From positions 1-32,795 of IMG/VR virus record IMGVR_UViG_3300027782_000228: a stretch of 32,795 nt of DNA; one strand, written 5' to 3'. Source of the DNA: a virus. Positions within the stretch are counted from its first letter, which is position 1, and each line of letters starts with the position of its first letter. Under the pieces are notes generated by a model. It saw nothing but the letters and a program-made list of their open reading frames with translations, ran no database searches and was not told the DNA's origin. Positions 10,308 through 27,624 of the stretch are shown here, one piece after another. Position numbers and translations under genes: made by a program.

Positions 10308-10544
10308 TTAAAATTGAACATCATCATCAGCGGGTAAACCCTTGGGTTCAAATGGCTTAGGGTCGTTCAGAAATGCCCAACCGTCCCAACCGTTTTCCTT
10401 GAGGGGGATTACATCCAGTTTGAGCATTTCGCCATTGCGGGTTTCAATAATGCTGCCAATGCGCTGGTAGCGGTTCTTTGTTTGACCGTCTTTGTTTGTG
10501 TACTGACCAACAATTGCGGAAACTTCTTTTCTGATTTTTGACAT
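10308..10544 (-). CDS. Small recombination-operon protein
   Basis: This 78-residue protein starts MSKIRKEVSAIVGQYTNKDG and appears beta-rich (KNRYQRIGSIIETRNGEMLK), with WDGWAFLNDPKPFEP and an acidic C terminus (ADDDVQF). The acidic tip and the position directly after the exonuclease and ERF genes recall single-strand DNA-binding proteins. I cannot confirm an OB fold by eye, so this is only a suggestion. It overlaps the exonuclease stop at one base. Confidence 0.68.
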   Translation of the reverse strand: MSKIRKEVSAIVGQYTNKDGQTKNRYQRIGSIIETRNGEMLKLDVIPLKENGWDGWAFLNDPKPFEPKGLPADDDVQF

Positions 10545-11167
10545 TATTTGCTTTCAATGATTTGGTTAAGTTGTTGTACTTGGGATTCGACTTCAGCAAG
10601 GAATTTGACAATCTCTGCTTCAATTTCAGCAATGTAGGCATCATCCCGATTTACACGGGTGACAAACAATTGCGCTTTGGCTGGCATTCTGGGATCAAAT
10701 ACAACGTAATCACAAAACTTTGTGCCAGTACAGGCCATTTGAAATTGCATCTGGGTAAAGTATTTGGTTGGTACTTTTCCTGTTAACAGCGCCTCAATCA
10801 TGGTTGCAGTATTTGGGCATTTGATTTCCACAAGGCCATCATCCCCAACAAGGCCATCAGGAGACGCACCAGCCCATTCAATTGTTGGATGCGGTACAAA
10901 GCCCACTTCTTCAACCATAACGCCTTGTGCGGCCTCATATGCGGCACGGGCAAACGGTTCTTGATCTGTACCCCATTGCATTGCCGCATTTGTGTACGAC
11001 TCTGCCTTAGTCTGGGTTAAGCGTTCGACCACAAGCTGCGCCATGTAGTTTTCCCTGCTGGTGCTGTAACCCGTCTTTGTCTTGGCGATTACGTCAGCTA
11101 CTCTTGAGGCCGTCACTTTGCCTAATCTGATGGCAAACCAATCTTCTGAGCGTTGTTCAATTTCCAT
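10544..11167 (-). CDS. YqaJ/lambda-exonuclease-like recombinase nuclease
   Basis: This 207-residue protein matches the YqaJ / Red-alpha exonuclease family: QRSEDWFAIRLGKVTASR at the N terminus, WGTDQEPFARAAYE (Glu70), GASPDGLVG (Asp104) and LVEIKCP (Glu114, Lys116). Together these are the conserved PD-(D/E)XK active-site elements. Such enzymes resect double-strand ends 5'-3' to give 3' single strands, on which the ERF protein encoded upstream would load. GGAGG lies six bases before the ATG. A 55-residue gene separates it from ERF. Lambda exonuclease is 226 residues, so it is close to full length. Confidence 0.92.
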   Translation of the reverse strand: MEIEQRSEDWFAIRLGKVTASRVADVIAKTKTGYSTSRENYMAQLVVERLTQTKAESYTNAAMQWGTDQEPFARAAYEAAQGVMVEEVGFVPHPTIEWAGASPDGLVGDDGLVEIKCPNTATMIEALLTGKVPTKYFTQMQFQMACTGTKFCDYVVFDPRMPAKAQLFVTRVNRDDAYIAEIEAEIVKFLAEVESQVQQLNQIIESK

Positions 11168-11324
11168 TTCTAACCTCCATCATTTCATCGGCTTGTTTGT
11201 AAGCCAGTTGAGCGTTTTCCCAAAAAGTATTGGGGTCAATTACACCGCCTGCCGCCAATATGGTTTGCAGTGCTTTAGCTGCGAAATAGTCCCGCAGCGT
11301 CATTTTGTCCAACATATCAGACAT
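11157..11324 (-). CDS. 55-residue small phage protein (MTLRDYFAAKA family)
   Basis: The ORF MSDMLDKMTLRDYFAAKALQ ... TFWENAQLAYKQADEMMEVR fills the gap between the ERF and exonuclease genes. It overlaps ERF by 8 bases and the exonuclease by 11. The MTLRDYFAAKA opening and AYxxADxMxxxR ending are a pattern I recognise from small proteins in many phage recombination operons. AGGAG-like bases (aaaaggagaaaac) precede the ATG. Function unknown; the operon position suggests an accessory to recombination. Confidence 0.75.
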   Translation of the reverse strand: MSDMLDKMTLRDYFAAKALQTILAAGGVIDPNTFWENAQLAYKQADEMMEVRNGN

Positions 11325-11946
11325 TTGTTTTCTCCTTTTTAGCTTTTGCGATTCGATCTGCCTTGGCTTTGATTACCTTGGCCTGCCATGCCTGATCACC
11401 ATCACAGGCGGCGTAAGCTGCGGCATAGGTGGTTTGTAATTCCTCTTTGCTGGCGCTGGCATCAATGGCGGCAATGTGGTCTGCCATCTGACCAGCATCC
11501 ACTTTGCTTTCCACTGGCGCGCGGCGGCTGGCGCTGTTACCGTCATCATCTTCGGGGGCAAGCCCTGTAGCTGCAAGCAAGCTGTAGCGTCTAGCGTAAG
11601 TTAAAGCCGAGCCGTAACCCTGTGGGTCTTGTTTGCTGGCAGGAACATGAAGTAACCCGCATTCCATGATTTCACCAGATTCGTGGATAAACACGGTCTC
11701 AACCATCACGCCATCTTTGGATTCATAGGTGCGCTGCATCAAGCCTATGCCATTGTCATTTAAAGCCCCGATAACAGCCTCAACGCAATTGGATAGGTCA
11801 GCGTACTTGGAACGAAAATGCGGGTTTGTAGAGGTCTTTAAAGCAGGGCCAAACGCCTTTTGTGCTTTGACAAAGGCTGCGGCAATCTGTTTGCCGATTG
11901 GTGTTTCTTTTTGGAATGCACGTTCGATAATGTCTTTGGTTTCCAT
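11317..11946 (-). CDS. erf: ERF-family single-strand DNA annealing protein
   Basis: This 209-residue protein is close to P22 Erf (204). It has the ERF core: AAAFVKAQKAFGPALKTS, NPHFRSKYADLSNCVEAVIG, and the diagnostic GYGSALTYARRYSLLAATG at about 110-128, followed by LAPEDDDGN. The C-terminal third is helical and Lys-rich. It anneals complementary single strands for phage recombination or circularisation, working with the YqaJ exonuclease in the same operon. The upstream region has only a weak GAAAGAAA ribosome site, and the gene follows the lipoprotein gene by nine bases. Confidence 0.93.
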   Translation of the reverse strand: METKDIIERAFQKETPIGKQIAAAFVKAQKAFGPALKTSTNPHFRSKYADLSNCVEAVIGALNDNGIGLMQRTYESKDGVMVETVFIHESGEIMECGLLHVPASKQDPQGYGSALTYARRYSLLAATGLAPEDDDGNSASRRAPVESKVDAGQMADHIAAIDASASKEELQTTYAAAYAACDGDQAWQAKVIKAKADRIAKAKKEKTNV

Positions 11947-12827: not shown

Positions 12828-12848
12828 CAACTATTTGCAATTATTTTC

Positions 12849-13155: not shown

Positions 13156-13887
13156 ATGTTATTGATACCCAAAAATTGGGCTGTTTTCCAGCACTATAAG
13201 AATCGACTTCCTCCTTGGATTAAATTACATCGTGAACTCTTAAACGACAGGGTTTATATGAGCTTGCCACTTGCTAGCAAAGCGATAGCGCCTTTGATGT
13301 GGTTGCTAGCATCCGAAACTAAAAATGGCAGTTTTGATGGCTCATTGGATGAGCTTGTGTTTCGGTTACACATTACAGAAAAAGATTATCGAGATGGCGT
13401 TAAACCATTGATTGATAAAGGATTCTTTATTGATGCTAGCAAGACGCTAGCAGATAGCAAGCAAGTTGCTACCCCAGAGAGAGAGAGAGAGACAGAGAGA
13501 GAGACAGAGAAAACCTTTATTTGTCCACCTGACGGCGAACCCAAGCCTAAAAAATTACCAGAATGCGACCACAAGGCAGTCATTGAGCTGTACCACCAAA
13601 ACCTGCCCACAATGCGTAGGGTAGAAGTTTGGAACGAAACAAGGGCTGGTTACCTGCGGCAACGATGGCGGGAGGTAGCGGCAGAGCTGGCGCAAGCAAA
13701 CGACATTGATGCCAATGATGTGCTTAACTGGTGGGGACAGTTTTTTCAATCTGTCAGCAAATCCAGATTTTTGACCGGCAGGGTCAACGGCAAGGATGGT
13801 CGGGCATTTGTTGCTGATTTGGAATGGATACTGAAACCAAGCAATTTTGCAAAAATCGTAGAGGGAAAATATCATGGCAATAACTAA
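13156..13887 (+). CDS. Replication initiator / primosome protein (lambda O-like role)
   Basis: This 243-residue protein starts with GAGG five bases before the ATG. The N-terminal domain (about 1-100) reads as a winged-helix replication domain: IPKNWAVFQHYKNRLPPWIK, then KAIAPLMWLLAS and LDELVFRLHITEKDYRDGVK, ending PLIDKGFFID. A charged linker of RERERETERETEK (about 107-120) follows. The C-terminal domain (about 135-243) has ELYHQNLPTM, VWNETRAGYLRQRW and a final SRFLTGRV ... FVADLEWILKPSNFAKIVEG, a block common to phage helicase-loading or initiation proteins. It would bind the origin and recruit host helicase. Repeats inside the gene may be the origin itself. Confidence 0.82.
   Translation: MLLIPKNWAVFQHYKNRLPPWIKLHRELLNDRVYMSLPLASKAIAPLMWLLASETKNGSFDGSLDELVFRLHITEKDYRDGVKPLIDKGFFIDASKTLADSKQVATPERERETERETEKTFICPPDGEPKPKKLPECDHKAVIELYHQNLPTMRRVEVWNETRAGYLRQRWREVAAELAQANDIDANDVLNWWGQFFQSVSKSRFLTGRVNGKDGRAFVADLEWILKPSNFAKIVEGKYHGNN
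13271..13510. other. Candidate replication origin inside the initiator gene
   Basis: The core TGCTAGCA or GCTAGCA occurs at 13271-13280 (TTGCTAGCAA, a perfect 10-bp palindrome), 13303-13312 (TTGCTAGCAT), 13433-13442 (ATGCTAGCAA) and 13444-13453 (ACGCTAGCAG). A related inverted repeat, TAGCAA-GCAAG-TTGCTA, follows at 13455-13471, and then a 35-base strand-biased purine tract. Only one other GCTAGC was noticed by eye in the window (26464). Lambda has the same arrangement within gene O: iterons followed by a purine/AT-skewed unwinding region. This is a pattern-based inference. Confidence 0.55.
13476..13510 (+). repeat. (AG)n dinucleotide tract
   Basis: Seventeen uninterrupted bases of alternating A/G (13476-13492) are followed by a C, eleven more (13494-13504), another C and AGAGA. 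The tract encodes the Arg/Glu linker RERERETERETEK of the initiator. A dinucleotide repeat is slippage-prone and would shift frame if it changed by one unit. Confidence 0.85.
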
Positions 13888-15448: not shown

Positions 15449-15808
15449 ATGAACGAAGAAGTCGCCGAATTTGTTGCCACTTTGCTGCATAGCAGCACGG
15501 TTACGCATTTCATGCACTGGTCTACTGACAGCTTTGCCAAGCACATGGCACTAGGGGAATATTATGCCCAAATTATTGAATTGGTTGATCAATTTGCCGA
15601 AGCGTATATGGGTCGCTATGAACAGCTTAAAAAGTTTCCTGATGAGTTTCATCTTGAAAAAGACCCCGTAAAGTATTTGGACAACCTCAAAGATTTTGTC
15701 GAAGAAGCACGAAAAGAACTGCCTCAAGACTCAGAATTGCAGAATCTTGTTGATGAAATCGCCGATTTGATCAATTCGACTTTGTATAAATTGCGATTCC
15801 TCAACTAA
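15449..15808 (+). CDS. DUF5856 / Dps-like ferritin-fold protein
   Basis: This 119-residue all-helical protein has the features of the Dps-like DUF5856 family of phages: LLHSSTVTHFMHWSTDSFAK with a HxxHW-TxSxAxH pattern, then ALGEYYAQIIELVDQFAEAY and an acidic helical C terminus. Dps-like proteins bind DNA or iron and protect from oxidative damage. Key metal ligands cannot be assigned by eye, so a ferroxidase role is not claimed. It begins a new transcription unit between a strong terminator and the accessory genes, and lacks a Shine-Dalgarno site. Confidence 0.72.
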   Translation: MNEEVAEFVATLLHSSTVTHFMHWSTDSFAKHMALGEYYAQIIELVDQFAEAYMGRYEQLKKFPDEFHLEKDPVKYLDNLKDFVEEARKELPQDSELQNLVDEIADLINSTLYKLRFLN

Positions 15809-16085: not shown

Positions 16086-16316
16086 ATGGCTGATGAACAT
16101 TCTAATTGCGGCGGGTGTCGGTTTTTCCGAAACCAGCAAGTTATGGGCGTATGCCGCCTGTACCCGCACCAGCAAAACAAGCACGAATCTGATTGGTGTG
16201 GTCAATTTGAGGCAAAAGCCACAAAAAAGGTGTACGACATAACCACCGACCAGACCACCGAAGCCCCTCTGAAGCGCAAATACACAAGGAGATCAAATGA
16301 TCAAGCCGTTGCGTGA
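16086..16316 (+). CDS. Small Cys-rich protein
   Basis: This 76-residue protein has AAGGAG six bases upstream. The N-terminal half has CGGCRFF, GVCRLYP and DWCGQF: four or five Cys in a C-x2-C ... C ... WC pattern known from small phage proteins that probably bind zinc or an iron-sulphur cluster. The C-terminal half is basic and disordered (PLKRKYTRRSNDQ). It overlaps the GroES-like gene by 20 bases. Function unknown. Confidence 0.74.
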   Translation: MADEHSNCGGCRFFRNQQVMGVCRLYPHQQNKHESDWCGQFEAKATKKVYDITTDQTTEAPLKRKYTRRSNDQAVA

Positions 16317-16554
16317 CAGGGTGGTTGTAAAGCCGATTACCCGCAATTTGTCGGACATAATCTACGTCAACAACAAAGAGCCTTTTAATGAGGGAACGAT
16401 TGTGGCAGCAGGCCCGATGGTGACTCAGGCACAAGTTGGTGACTTTATCAAGTACGGGAACGGGGATTACCTTAATTGGCCTGTTCACCGCATTGATGGG
16501 CAAGACTACCAGATCATTCAAGAAGCAGACATTTGCGCTGTTGTGGAGGCTTAA
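16297..16554 (+). CDS. Phage GroES-like co-chaperonin
   Basis: This 85-residue protein opens MIKPLRDRVVVKPITRNLSD, the signature start of GroES/Cpn10, and continues with GTIVAAG and VGDFIKYGN, the usual GroES beta-barrel core. At 85 residues it is slightly shorter than bacterial GroES (about 97). The sequence between residues 17 and 33 would be the mobile loop that touches GroEL. No GroEL is encoded here, so it should cap the host chaperonin, as T4 gp31 does, to fold the coat protein. AAGGAG precedes the ATG. Confidence 0.88.
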   Translation: MIKPLRDRVVVKPITRNLSDIIYVNNKEPFNEGTIVAAGPMVTQAQVGDFIKYGNGDYLNWPVHRIDGQDYQIIQEADICAVVEA

Positions 16555-17565: not shown

Positions 17566-18810
17566 ATGCCAACCCTTGCCGACATTTACAGCGCCATAGA
17601 ATCTGCAAAGCGCAGAGGGTCTGATTTTGTTAGCAATCCTGTAACTAGCTTACAACAAATGCTAGGTAGTGCAAATGATCGAGCAAGGGATTACAACCAG
17701 CAAATGGTGCAAGCCGCCCAAGGATTTGGTGCGCCAGTAAGTGGACAGCAGGCTACGCAAGAACAGCAAGCAGCATTGCAAAACACAGCAGAAACATTTG
17801 CTAATGCCTATAACCCTGCTGGCATTTTTATTCCTGCGGCTAAAGAAATTGCATTCAAAGCGGCAATGTTAGAAAAAAAGGGATTGAATCCAAAAGAAAT
17901 TTGGGAAAAACTAAAAGTGCATCGTGGCGCAAATGATAACCAATGGCGGCAAGAAGTTGGAGATAGTGCCGCAAGTCTTAAAGGTGGTGAAACATTTCAT
18001 GATGCAGTAATGAACCAAATGACAAAATTAGGTAAAGACAAAACAGCAGAACCTGTAACTGTTGGGGATGTATTTGAACATCCTGAACTTTTTAAAAAAT
18101 ATCCAGAATTAAAAGATATTGAAGTCAGATTCCATCCAGAAGATAGCAAATCCTCTGGCACAAGTGCTCTTCCAGAAGAGGGTAAAGGATGGATTCAATT
18201 AAAAGGTAGTTTAAACAAAGATCAAGCAAAAGATGTAATGCTTCATGAATTACAGCATCCTATACAAGAAGCTGAAAATTGGGCGGTTGGCGGTTCTGCT
18301 GTTGATTTCCAACACCAAGATGCGGCAAAGAAAGCTAGAAATATTCTAGGATGGCGTAAAGAAGTAGAAGCAACCGCTGAAAGAATGGGGATGACTCCTG
18401 CCAATAATTCAGATTGGTTTAGAAATGCTGAAAACAAATTAATACAAGATTATTACGATAAAGGGATTGGTAGTTGGTTGCCACATGAAGAAGCTAGATT
18501 TCAAGCAAGCTGGCCTGCATATAGTAAAGGCACAGACTCAAGAACACAAGCTGAACAATTAATGCAAATGTATGGATTAGATAAAAAAACCACGCCATAT
18601 AACCCTAATCAAATGTATAGCCGTTTAGGTGGCGAAGTTGAAGCTAGACAAGTTCAACAACGTCAAAATTTAACATCAGATGAAAGACAAGCCTATTTCC
18701 CTGGCGAATATAAAAGCCAAAACAATCCTTATGGTTACGATACTCCATTAAGTGATATGCTTTACCTTAATCGGCAAGGCTATTACAAATCACAGGATTT
18801 AGCTAAATGA
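17566..18810 (+). CDS. Zincin-like metallopeptidase domain protein
   Basis: This 414-residue protein has a helical N terminus (about 1-110), a central beta region ending GKGWIQLKGS, then DVMLHELQHPIQEAENW with HELxH zinc-site residues His227, Glu228 and His231. A YSRLGGEVEARQVQQR segment (about 351-366) has Glu357/359 as a possible third ligand. This HELQH ... GEVEAR pairing is known from metallopeptidase domains in large polyvalent proteins of phages and mobile elements. In phages it may process a virion protein or act in the host. It lies immediately before terminase, and its sequence looks more AT-rich and simpler in codon use than terminase, hinting at a separate origin. It ends by ATGA overlap. 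Confidence 0.78.
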   Translation: MPTLADIYSAIESAKRRGSDFVSNPVTSLQQMLGSANDRARDYNQQMVQAAQGFGAPVSGQQATQEQQAALQNTAETFANAYNPAGIFIPAAKEIAFKAAMLEKKGLNPKEIWEKLKVHRGANDNQWRQEVGDSAASLKGGETFHDAVMNQMTKLGKDKTAEPVTVGDVFEHPELFKKYPELKDIEVRFHPEDSKSSGTSALPEEGKGWIQLKGSLNKDQAKDVMLHELQHPIQEAENWAVGGSAVDFQHQDAAKKARNILGWRKEVEATAERMGMTPANNSDWFRNAENKLIQDYYDKGIGSWLPHEEARFQASWPAYSKGTDSRTQAEQLMQMYGLDKKTTPYNPNQMYSRLGGEVEARQVQQRQNLTSDERQAYFPGEYKSQNNPYGYDTPLSDMLYLNRQGYYKSQDLAK

Positions 18811-19226
18811 TAGACATTGTTCCCGTCCTAGAAAAACGTCCAGTAGGTCGCCCAACCCTATATGACCCCGCATATTGCGAGACTGTCAGGGATTTAGGGC
18901 GCATCGGCAAATCTGTTGAGCAAATCTGTTATCAGCTTAATGTAAGTCTTAGAACCATTTACTTATGGCGAGATGCTCACGAAGAATTTCTACACGCCTT
19001 GGACGATGCTAAGACTTATGAGCAAGCATGGTGGGAAGAACAAGCCGCTGCTTACATGGTTGAGAACAAAGAAAGCGATAGGCTGAATTCAACATTGTGG
19101 TCAAGGTCAATGGCTGCAAGGTTTCCAAAGAAGTATCGGGAAAGCACAAAACAGGAAATTACGGGTGCAGACGGTGCGCCACTGCTCACAGGCATTCAGG
19201 TGACATTTGTAAAGCCAAATGAGTGA
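18807..19226 (+). CDS. Terminase small subunit
   Basis: This 139-residue protein (P22 gp3 has 162) reads KRPVGRPTLYDPAYCETVRD, then GKSVEQICYQLNVSLRTIYL as a helix-turn-helix, and AWWEEQAAAYMVENKE. This matches the small terminase family with a GRPxxYxP..C opening. It binds the pac/cos site and directs the large subunit to start packaging. It overlaps both neighbours (4 and 8 bases), as expected for a terminase pair. Confidence 0.87.
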   Translation: MIDIVPVLEKRPVGRPTLYDPAYCETVRDLGRIGKSVEQICYQLNVSLRTIYLWRDAHEEFLHALDDAKTYEQAWWEEQAAAYMVENKESDRLNSTLWSRSMAARFPKKYRESTKQEITGADGAPLLTGIQVTFVKPNE

Positions 19227-20493
19227 TGTTGCCAGTGCCATTGCCAACGCTGAGTTTCCAATCAAGCTGCAAGGCTTATTCCAACCGTCCCGCTACAAGG
19301 TAGCCTATGGCGGCAGGGGTGGCGCTAAGTCATGGGGGATTGCTAGGGCGTTGCTAATCAAAGGGGCGAAAGACTCAATCCGCATCCTGTGCGCCCGAGA
19401 GTTCCAGACCAGCATCAAGGATTCAGTCCACAAGCTACTGTCAGACCAGATCGAAGCCCTTGGCTTAATGGGGTTTTATGAGATTACCCAGAACAGCATC
19501 AGAGCCAAGAACGGGACAGAGTTTGCCTTTGTTGGCCTCAGAAACAACGTAGCCAACATCAAATCCTATGAGGGTGTCGATATTGCATGGGTTGAGGAAG
19601 CACAGACCACAAGCCGCCTTAGCTGGAACATCCTAATACCTACCATCCGAAAACAGGGCAGCGAAATATGGATTTCGTTTAACCCCGAGTTAGAAACAGA
19701 CGAGACTTACCAGCGGTTTGTGCTAAAACCCCCTGATGACTGCATCCAGATCAAGATCAACTGGTCAGATAACCCTTGGTTTCCCGAAACCCTGCGGCTG
19801 GAAAAGGATGCGCTGAAAGAACGAGACGAGGAAGCCTATAACCAAGTCTGGGAGGGTTTGTGCCGCCAGACAGTGGACGGTGCAATCTTTGCCAAGGAAA
19901 TGCAGCAGGCCGAGAAAGATGGGCGCATCACCCGTGTGGCTTATGACGCAACCAAGCCAGTTCATGCGGTATTTGACTTGGGCTGGTCAGACAGCACCGC
20001 TATCTGGTTCTTGCAGTTTGTGGGGATGGAGACTAGGCTAATCAGATACATTGAGGACAGTCAGAAAACCATCAGCTACTATTTGGCAACCATGCAAACC
20101 TACGGGTATGTGTACGACACCATCTGGCTACCCCATGACGCTGAGAACAAGACACTAGCAGCCGCAGGACGGTCAATTGATGACATTGTGAGGGCAGCAG
20201 GGTACAAGACCCGCATCTTGCCTAAAGTGCCGATTGTGGACTCAATCAACGCCGCCAGAACAATATTCCCAAGCTGCTGGTTTGACCGTGAACACGCCGC
20301 CGATGGCCTAGCTTGCCTGCGCCACTACAGATATGAGGTAGACGTAGACACAGGTCAATTCAGCAGAACACCGCTACATGATCATTATTCGCATGGGGCT
20401 GACGCATTTAGGTACATTGCCCTTATGATTAAAGAGCCTGCAAAGCGCAAGAAACAAGAGCAGATTGCCAATGTTGGCAGTTGGATGGGATAA
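19219..20493 (+). CDS. Terminase large subunit
   Basis: This 424-residue protein has the ATPase Walker A GGRGGAKS (31-38), Walker B VDIAWVEEA with catalytic Glu126, and motif III ISFNP (about 152-156). The C-terminal RNase H-like nuclease has Asp253 in VFDLGWSDS, Asp307 in LPHDAEN and Asp395 in HGADAFRY. It is a packaging motor and headful/end-generating nuclease of the P22/PBSX type. All motifs are intact. It would act with the small subunit and the portal encoded 27 bases downstream. Confidence 0.96.
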   Translation: MSDVASAIANAEFPIKLQGLFQPSRYKVAYGGRGGAKSWGIARALLIKGAKDSIRILCAREFQTSIKDSVHKLLSDQIEALGLMGFYEITQNSIRAKNGTEFAFVGLRNNVANIKSYEGVDIAWVEEAQTTSRLSWNILIPTIRKQGSEIWISFNPELETDETYQRFVLKPPDDCIQIKINWSDNPWFPETLRLEKDALKERDEEAYNQVWEGLCRQTVDGAIFAKEMQQAEKDGRITRVAYDATKPVHAVFDLGWSDSTAIWFLQFVGMETRLIRYIEDSQKTISYYLATMQTYGYVYDTIWLPHDAENKTLAAAGRSIDDIVRAAGYKTRILPKVPIVDSINAARTIFPSCWFDREHAADGLACLRHYRYEVDVDTGQFSRTPLHDHYSHGADAFRYIALMIKEPAKRKKQEQIANVGSWMG

Positions 20494-25803: not shown

Positions 25804-27624
25804 ATGGCTGTCAATCTTTCAATGCTGGCGGGGGCGGGGGCGCAGTTTTTTGATAACAACGGCATACCTTTAGCGGGTGGTCTTGTTTATACCTATGCCG
25901 CAGGAACTAACACACCGCAGGCCGCATACACAACCAGCGCAGGATCAATAGCACACGCTAATCCAATTGTGCTTGATTCCGCTGGTCGTACTCCATCTGG
26001 CGGTGAGATTTGGCTAACTGATGCTGTGGCATATAAGTTTGTTTTGAAAACAGCAACCGCAGTCACAATTGGAACGTATGACAATGTAACTGGCAATGCA
26101 AGCGGCATATATGCGGCTTTTGCTGCATCTTCAGGATCATCTCTTGTTGGATATACACAAGGCGGCACAGGCGCTGTAGCTACTACGGTGCAAGCCAAGC
26201 TGCGACAGACTGTCAGCGTATTAGACTTTGGCGCTGACCCAACGGGTGCAACTGATAGCACAACTGCCATCCAAGCAGCAATTACTGCTGCCCCTCAAGG
26301 CGGCGCGGTGTACGTCCCTAACGGCACTTATAAAGTATCTGATGCTTTGGTAATTGACAAAGCGCTTACCATTTATGGTGACGGGCCTGGCAAATGGATT
26401 GATAGCCTTGGTGGTTCTATCATCACTCAAACAAATGTTGCCAAAAATGTTTTTACACTTAAAGCTAGCGTAGCCCAATACGCATTTGGTCAATATGGGT
26501 TAAACAACGTCAATTTTCGTGATTTGGCAATTACAGGCCCATCATCTGCAAGCCGTTGCACCCGAGGCATTGGCTGTGACACAACGGTCAATAGTGGCAA
26601 TTATCACATTCGAGAATGCACATTCACCAACATTCAAGTTCGGTTTTGTGTAACTGGCATTGAATTGGTGGGTATTTGTTATTTAAATGATTTTTACAGT
26701 AGCGTAATTTCTCAATGCGACACAGGTTTTGCACTATATCGTGGTTCAGCCTTAGAAAGTGGAGGGCAAACTAGATTTTTTGGAACGACCATTGATTTAA
26801 TTACTGACACTTGTTTACGATGGAACACTGACACAGGGTCTGGCGATTTGTCATTGTTTGGCTGTACATTGGCTGATGCGGCTTATGGAATTATCTCTAA
26901 CGAAGAAGCACAATTGATGATTTCAGGTTGTTCTTTTGAAAACTTGGTAAAAACTGGCGCACTTGGGGCTGGCATTTATATTGAAATTAAAGAAGCTAAT
27001 CCCGCATCCGATTCAGCAAAAACAATTATTGGCAATAAATTTTCGGCAAATGACAATTCTATTTGGCTGGATAAAACAACAACCGCCCTTGGTTCAAATT
27101 CGTGGGCATGGCCTATGTTAATTGATGGCAACACGTTACTTGACACAGTTGCTTTAAAGATTACTTTGCAATCAGGCGAACCACCTATGTCAGCACAGAA
27201 TTTTGTGTTGGGGGCAGGAAACTCTGGTCTTTCTGGTGGTTTTTTAGCTACATCGCAAATTAGCACAAACTATGCTGGCCGCGATATGCAAAAACAAATG
27301 CTTACGAGAAGCACTACGTTTGGCCCAAGCGCGGTTGGAACTTTACAATTGCCATTAGGTATGGTGGTTACTAGCGCCAGAGTTTATTTGACGGCAAACG
27401 CAAGTTCTTTTACTTCATTGTATGGCGGTGACGGAGATTTAAACACCCGTTACTATACTGGAATTAACGGGCAAACCGCACCACTAAACACATGGACAAA
27501 TTGGACGCCAACAGTGCCGCAATTTATTGTCAACAGCGCATTAAAACAACAAGTAACACTATCAGGAACTGCGGCGCTATCGGGTGCTGCTGGGGTGTTT
27601 GAAATTCAAGGTTATATCCCGTAA
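25804..27624 (+). CDS. Tailspike with pectin-lyase-like beta helix
   Basis: The 606-residue protein has an N-terminal virion-attachment domain (about 1-110; GAQFFDNNGIPLAGGLVYTY, GGEIWLTDAVAYKFVL, similar in style to P22 tailspike heads) and a linker with TQGGTGAVATTVQ. Then comes VSVLDFGADPTGATDSTTAI (138-157), the usual entry to a right-handed parallel beta helix, which runs to about residue 480. A beta-rich tip (about 480-606) follows. Such spikes bind and often cleave O-antigen or capsule. Catalytic residues are not assignable by eye. GAGGAA lies upstream. P22 gp9 has 667 residues. Confidence 0.86.
   Translation: MAVNLSMLAGAGAQFFDNNGIPLAGGLVYTYAAGTNTPQAAYTTSAGSIAHANPIVLDSAGRTPSGGEIWLTDAVAYKFVLKTATAVTIGTYDNVTGNASGIYAAFAASSGSSLVGYTQGGTGAVATTVQAKLRQTVSVLDFGADPTGATDSTTAIQAAITAAPQGGAVYVPNGTYKVSDALVIDKALTIYGDGPGKWIDSLGGSIITQTNVAKNVFTLKASVAQYAFGQYGLNNVNFRDLAITGPSSASRCTRGIGCDTTVNSGNYHIRECTFTNIQVRFCVTGIELVGICYLNDFYSSVISQCDTGFALYRGSALESGGQTRFFGTTIDLITDTCLRWNTDTGSGDLSLFGCTLADAAYGIISNEEAQLMISGCSFENLVKTGALGAGIYIEIKEANPASDSAKTIIGNKFSANDNSIWLDKTTTALGSNSWAWPMLIDGNTLLDTVALKITLQSGEPPMSAQNFVLGAGNSGLSGGFLATSQISTNYAGRDMQKQMLTRSTTFGPSAVGTLQLPLGMVVTSARVYLTANASSFTSLYGGDGDLNTRYYTGINGQTAPLNTWTNWTPTVPQFIVNSALKQQVTLSGTAALSGAAGVFEIQGYIP

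Follow-up and report, generated by a model that had tools for sequence, protein, structure and literature searches.

The window, by which is meant the whole stretch of DNA that was analysed, is a virus contig of 32,795 bases and is identical with its database record. Table 1 presents an overview of the initiator gene and the features within it. Residues 108-240 of the product match phrog_345 'replication initiation O-like' (1.8e-15), so that an O-like C-terminal domain is present, and the protein matches no Pfam family at an E-value of 0.001, RepA_N (PF06970) and DUF1376 (PF07120) included. Among the window ORFs that were scanned, small downstream ones included, none matches a helicase or a P-type loader. 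In named relatives, the neighbour 3' of the initiator is a DnaB helicase, a DnaC-like loader or a P protein. Elsewhere in the window, a YqaJ-type exonuclease and an Erf annealing protein form a recombination pair at 10544-11946 on the minus strand, opposite to the initiator. The ORFs at 15449-15808 and 16297-16554 match a 'starvation-inducible transcriptional regulator' PHROG and, weakly, a GroES co-chaperonin PHROG, respectively.

Table 1. Features of the initiator gene in window coordinates
Feature	Position	Strand	Remarks
Initiator gene, 243 aa	13156..13887	+	N-half, phrog_26426 'replication protein'; C-half, phrog_345 and phrog_5810
N-terminal helical, HTH-containing domain (type A)	13156..13470	+	Proposed box binder; AF2 model, pLDDT 67
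Box L1 TTGCTAGCAAA	13271..13281	+	Positions 3-9 invariant (100%) in 27 non-redundant relatives
Box L2 GCGATAGCGCC	13282..13292	+	GCGCTAGC in several relatives
Box L3 TTGCTAGCATC	13303..13313	+	21 bp after L2
Box R1 ATGCTAGCAAG	13433..13443	+	
Box R2 ACGCTAGCAGA	13444..13454	+	
Box R3 TAGCAAGCAAG	13455..13465	+	Degenerate
Box R4 TTGCTACCCCA	13466..13476	+	Degenerate
Purine tract GAG(AGA/ACA)n	13476..13513	+	Encodes linker ERERETERETEK; proposed unwinding/helicase-entry element; DNA-level conservation, low stability
Short AT-rich stretch, start of shared C-terminal part	13514..13525	+	TATATATGTCC in many relatives
C-terminal O-like/DnaD-like domain	13558..13884	+	Common to phages with other N-domains and other boxes

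A model of the N-domain was built with AF2 from 41 sequences and is of modest confidence (pLDDT 67); a full-length model (pLDDT 62 overall) was set aside, its N-terminal part being too poor for use. With the N-domain model, the four best VIA matches among solved structures are all RepA_N initiators (4pql, 5kbj, 4pt7 and 4pta; Z 5.5-6.0, with the next at 3.9). Two of these, 4PTA and 4PT7, are described as RepA_N plasmid initiators (PMC7145576), and 4pql and 5kbj are so called from their entry titles. Foldseek comparison of the same model gave E-values of about 2 or worse, and a sequence search of solved structures returned nothing credible. The predicted fold appears to resemble that of RepA_N plasmid initiators, the similarity being weak. 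Since RepA_N systems also carry their origin inside the rep gene, bacteriophage lambda is not the sole comparator for this locus.

Repeat boxes and purine tract within the gene

The hexamer GCTAGC is found four times in the initiator gene, at 13273, 13305, 13435 and 13446, and once more in the window, at 26464. The five copies compare with 7.6 expected, so there is no overall enrichment and the window-wide count was rejected as evidence; what stands out is the clustering. Of all palindromic 6-mers, GCTAGC alone reaches four copies inside 183 bp in the whole record, and the 10-bp palindrome TTGCTAGCAA at 13271-13280 has a single occurrence. At least four copies in the gene arose in just 6 of 20,000 within-gene synonymous codon shuffles and in 2 of 20,000 draws from the codon usage of the phage. 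These results bear out much of the original prediction, which had described one copy as a 10-bp palindrome, the last two as 11 bases apart, all four as lying within 183 bases with one further copy in the window, and the whole as seemingly too concentrated to be a by-product of coding. It had counted four copies of a GCTAGCA core; the four GCTAGC are there, but relatives reveal seven 11-bp boxes. A matrix trained only on relatives finds its seven best matches in the window all inside the initiator gene. Boxes R1-R4 are contiguous, run head to tail and lead straight into the purine tract, and L1-L3 make up a second cluster at 13271-13313. The TAGCAA/TTGCTA inverted repeat reported earlier (13455-13471) is real but is better taken as the degenerate boxes R3 and R4 of this 11-bp array.

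The constraint on the boxes is one of DNA sequence. At 70-98% protein identity, relatives retain most sites at the same gene offsets, and among 18 close relatives the site codons (degeneracy at least 4) are identical in 0.91 of pairs as against 0.56 elsewhere (p = 2.7e-4). In 27 non-redundant relatives, the major base at fourfold-degenerate positions has a frequency of 0.91 inside the boxes and 0.57 outside. The protein varies between and beside the boxes (e.g., D-A-S to V-A-S) while the box itself is constant. One type A subgroup has lost the perfect GCTAGC and has near-matches only. Were the motif simply what conserved Ala-Ser or Leu-Ala pairs yield under biased codon usage, some conservation of box residues would be expected, and some is found; codon shuffles also retain part of the 11-bp signal, with a null of 0.37 at lag 11. 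However, the motif is read as GCT AGC (Ala-Ser) in some boxes and as CTA GCA (Leu-Ala) in others because the repeat spacing of 11 nt is no multiple of 3, and synonymous sites are fixed in the boxes only. Codon shuffles and synonymous fixation together reject such a coding by-product, which is extremely improbable.

Turning to the tract, its purine-rich character after the repeats is as predicted, and its codon usage is distinctive. In 27 relatives, its Glu codons are GAG in 155 cases and GAA in 2 (155/157), as against 124 GAG and 219 GAA in the rest of the gene; tract Arg is AGA in 37 of 38 cases and tract Thr is ACA in 87 of 89. The residues between the Glu codons, by comparison, vary freely among R, T, A, G and K. 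It is thus the DNA pattern that is kept while the protein drifts. Immediately downstream, where differing N-modules join the shared C-domain, a near-constant TATATATGTCCRCC (13514-13530 of the window, and at the same place in loci L019-L081) is a possible recombination joint.

Averaged over 29 N-domain clusters, duplex stability calculated by nearest neighbours has a dip at the tract. For 21 of the 29 clusters, the 30-mer of lowest stability falls between -10 and +40 relative to the tract start, where about 5.5 would be expected (p about 6e-10). The 50-mer at 13475 of the window ranks at the 8.5th percentile of stability, but other 50-mers, such as that at 12842 upstream of the gene, are less stable. 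The tract is not an AT-rich unwinding region: it is GA-rich, and the AT-rich part is only ~8-12 bp, although stability is reduced.

Co-variation of boxes and N-terminal domains

One C-domain occurs behind several N-domain types, with the swap boundary at the N/C junction. The window has a type A N-domain; a type B N-domain ('KIKNWKKFQHFKDRKPPW') shares 33-41% identity with it, and type B genes have GATATC boxes at 11-bp spacing immediately 5' of a similar GA tract; the third type, DUF1376, has neither. Among genes that have the window's C-domain, those of type A (n=15) contain a mean of 3.9 GCTAGC, while at least two GATATC are found in 15 of 16 type B genes; at least two GCTAGC are found in 0 of these 16 and in 0 of 38 DUF1376 genes. 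When type A N-domains are instead joined to other C-domains, at least two GCTAGC are present in 51 of 60. The 'replication protein O' gene of Cylindrospermopsis phage Cr-LKS3, which has another C-domain, contains all six GCTAGC of a 6.4-kb stretch and is followed by a replicative helicase; the corresponding gene of Iodobacter phage PhiPLPE contains five and is followed by a DnaC-like loader. Judged by these counts, the box sequence follows the N-domain and not the C-domain. As a separate matter, the taxonomy line of Limnohabitans phage DC33 (L087, PQ492659.1) reads Inoviridae, yet its 39 kb and tailed-phage-like replication gene make this classification look wrong.

The two clusters of boxes differ in this respect. 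L1-L3 are conserved in type A and not generally in type B; R1-R4 and the tract are therefore regarded as the core, with L1-L3 in an accessory role. Since 10 of 77 type B genes have GCTAGC at two left-cluster positions despite a GATATC right array, the link with the N-domain is less clear for the left boxes.

Co-variation of protein and DNA would be expected equally if the boxes were operators, through which the initiator would curb its own expression while replication starts elsewhere, and initiators that repress their own gene exist. The boxes, however, sit within the coding sequence, 115-320 bp into it, rather than at a promoter. A search for a promoter-like site beside them found none, and the tract and its low stability would go unexplained; a role as operators is thus unlikely. 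Another use for the repeats and the tract could be as a recombination element, in which they mark the crossover point for N-module swaps. N-domains are indeed swapped before one C-domain at this boundary, next to the conserved TATATATGTCC stretch, and the phage encodes its own Erf annealing protein and YqaJ exonuclease. Against this, the boxes differ by N-domain type, the opposite of shared homology, and are located on the swapped side; the swapping, moreover, could result from linkage of origin and initiator rather than cause it. This explanation is accordingly given very little weight. Less credible still is a packaging (pac) site or other phage signal. The portal is P22-like, and phages with such a portal package from a pac site, but the terminase genes are at 18807-20493, more than 5 kb off, and the boxes follow the initiator N-domain.

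The 11-bp geometry across initiator families

The wider comparison was made with a pool of 270 distinct initiator genes, consisting of 75 of type A, 80 of type B and 115 with DUF1376. Over 29 N-domain clusters, self-match within the 66 nt that precede the tract averages 0.49 at lag 11 and 0.43 at lag 22, as against 0.21-0.32 at other lags, and 22 of the 29 score best at lag 11. Against synonymous shuffling of a first set of 20 clusters, where the null at lag 11 is the 0.37 given above, z reaches 10.3 for lag 11 and 8.3 for lag 22. Elsewhere in the gene there is no peak at lag 11. Box sequences vary between clusters while the geometry is constant. As a yardstick, the same scan of lambda O gives lags of 23, 24 and 20 at the annotated iterons.

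DUF1376 (PF07120) N-domains are accompanied by boxes of another sequence, in the same place, again every 11 bp and before a low-complexity tract. Profile comparison of these N-domains with those of types A and B gave no reliable relation (probability 23). The tracts differ in kind: purine runs of at least 18 are present in 75 of 75 type A and 79 of 80 type B genes, while runs of at least three AACYA-like units at 7-bp spacing are present in 88 of 115 DUF1376 genes and in none of type A or B. In 54 non-redundant genes, the 7-bp units fall in the three reading frames 98, 76 and 86 times. Such roughly equal use of the frames implies that the (AACCANN)n units of DUF1376 genes are a DNA feature too. 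In DUF1376 loci from many hosts (L058, L019, L171-L175 and others; gene nt about 340-440), (AACCANN)n encodes NNQEPITNNQ-like linkers. In the ydaU gene of the Rac prophage of E. coli K-12 (DUF1376; L169:2509-2590, gene nt 424-467), 11-bp-phased variants of TGTTCAAAC are found mid-gene, on their own not significantly (p = 0.07). The Rac prophage has an active origin, oriJ (PMC3945230).

Taken together, a single origin grammar common to a great many phage initiators whose N-domains differ, the uncharacterised DUF1376 family included, seems a reasonable, if not yet firm, proposition. About four N-domain-specific 11-bp boxes would be followed by a frame-independent repeat tract, (GAGACA)n or (AACCANN)n, at which the duplex could open or the helicase enter in all of them. 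If so, DUF1376 would be an origin-binding domain and a phage origin could be read from the initiator gene alone. In the open-licence literature, no description was found of the initiator family of the window, or of origins in DUF1376 genes.

A candidate replication origin and its counterparts

As the original prediction held, the reading that best fits the sequence data is that the segment is the replication origin of the phage, embedded in its own initiator gene and working like lambda O/ori and the RepA_N initiators; we consider this very probable. It is favoured because the boxes are constrained as DNA, co-vary with the N-domain, sit at the position known from lambda and are followed, in most relatives, by the stretch of lowest stability in the gene region. 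To initiate replication, the N-domain would bind the 11-bp TTGCTAGCAAG boxes. With R1-R4 one helical turn apart, initiators may stack along the same side of the helix, next to the purine tract, and L1-L3 could act as accessory boxes specific to the type A N-domain. The assembled complex would then open the low-stability tract region, where the O-like C-domain may recruit the replicative helicase, with the loader of the host where the phage lacks one, so that the origin could fire.

Several observations count against an origin at this locus. Cumulative GC skew, which the original prediction had proposed to compute, has its overall minimum at 788 and a local one at 11,784 and follows the change in gene direction from leftward to rightward. 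It offers no signal independent of gene direction and, being confounded in this way, was dropped as origin evidence. The proposed calculation of duplex stability places the minimum at the tract in most clusters, but less stable 50-mers exist elsewhere in the window and the tract is not AT-rich. To these may be added the type A subgroup with near-matches only, the left GCTAGC in some type B genes and the lack of a helicase or loader among the scanned ORFs.

An origin inside an initiator gene is already known from lambda, SPP1 and RepA_N; the present case stands apart from these by its 11-bp box spacing, by tracts that are independent of reading frame and by its extension to DUF1376. In lambda O/ori-lambda, and also in the Stx phages P27 and 933W, boxes likewise lie mid-gene between the DNA-binding and C-terminal parts and are followed by an unwinding region; by PHROG, lambda O and the window initiator both have an O-like C-domain. 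The lambda-like order that had been predicted holds for the mid-gene position of the boxes and for a candidate unwinding region after them; it does not hold for the tract, which is purine-rich and of low complexity, whereas the lambda origin has an AT-rich region (PMC7466680). Lambda also has four 18-bp iterons spaced 20-24 bp apart, unlike the 11-bp boxes of the window at 11-bp spacing, contiguous in R1-R4. Further differences from lambda are the second cluster, L1-L3, together with the purine tract, and the absence of a recognised P gene.

The RepA_N initiators of pSK41 and pTZ2162 and the PLE RepA represent the family whose HTH N-domain is the closest structural match to the modelled N-domain of the window; no sequence match to RepA_N was found, and the fold similarity is weak (Z 5.5-6.0). 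Boxes central within the initiator gene are shared by the window and pSK41 rep. In pSK41, four Rep boxes lie centrally in rep and the origin-encoded central stretch is a dispensable linker, and in pPR9 the N-domain and the origin are exchanged as one block (PMC5703833). By analogy, the origin-in-rep logic of pSK41 and pPR9 would be the same as that of the window. The iterons of RepA_N systems differ in form from the boxes of the window, being semi-palindromes set around a poly-A tract (PMC7145576). In SPP1, oriL is inside the gene for the initiator gp38 and has direct repeats and an AT-rich unwinding element (PMC6316719). The layout is like that of the window, but SPP1 infects Gram-positive hosts, encodes a loader of its own (gp39) and has oriR as a second origin. 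DUF1376 phage proteins such as Rac YdaU have the same C-domain in many relatives and 11-bp-phased boxes before a low-complexity tract; they differ from the window in N-domain family, in the boxes and in the tract, (AACCANN)n with a 7-bp period.

Most environmental phages have no mapped origin, and the 11-bp rule would let the origin and the likely target of the initiator be read from sequence. DUF1376, which occurs in phages of hosts such as Vibrio, Acinetobacter, Moraxella and Shewanella, would gain a testable function in origin binding. Odd linkers such as ERERETE and NNQEPITNNQ may be explained as translated origin DNA. Lastly, the swapping of N-domain and boxes as a unit before one C-domain would be a simple route to altered replication specificity.
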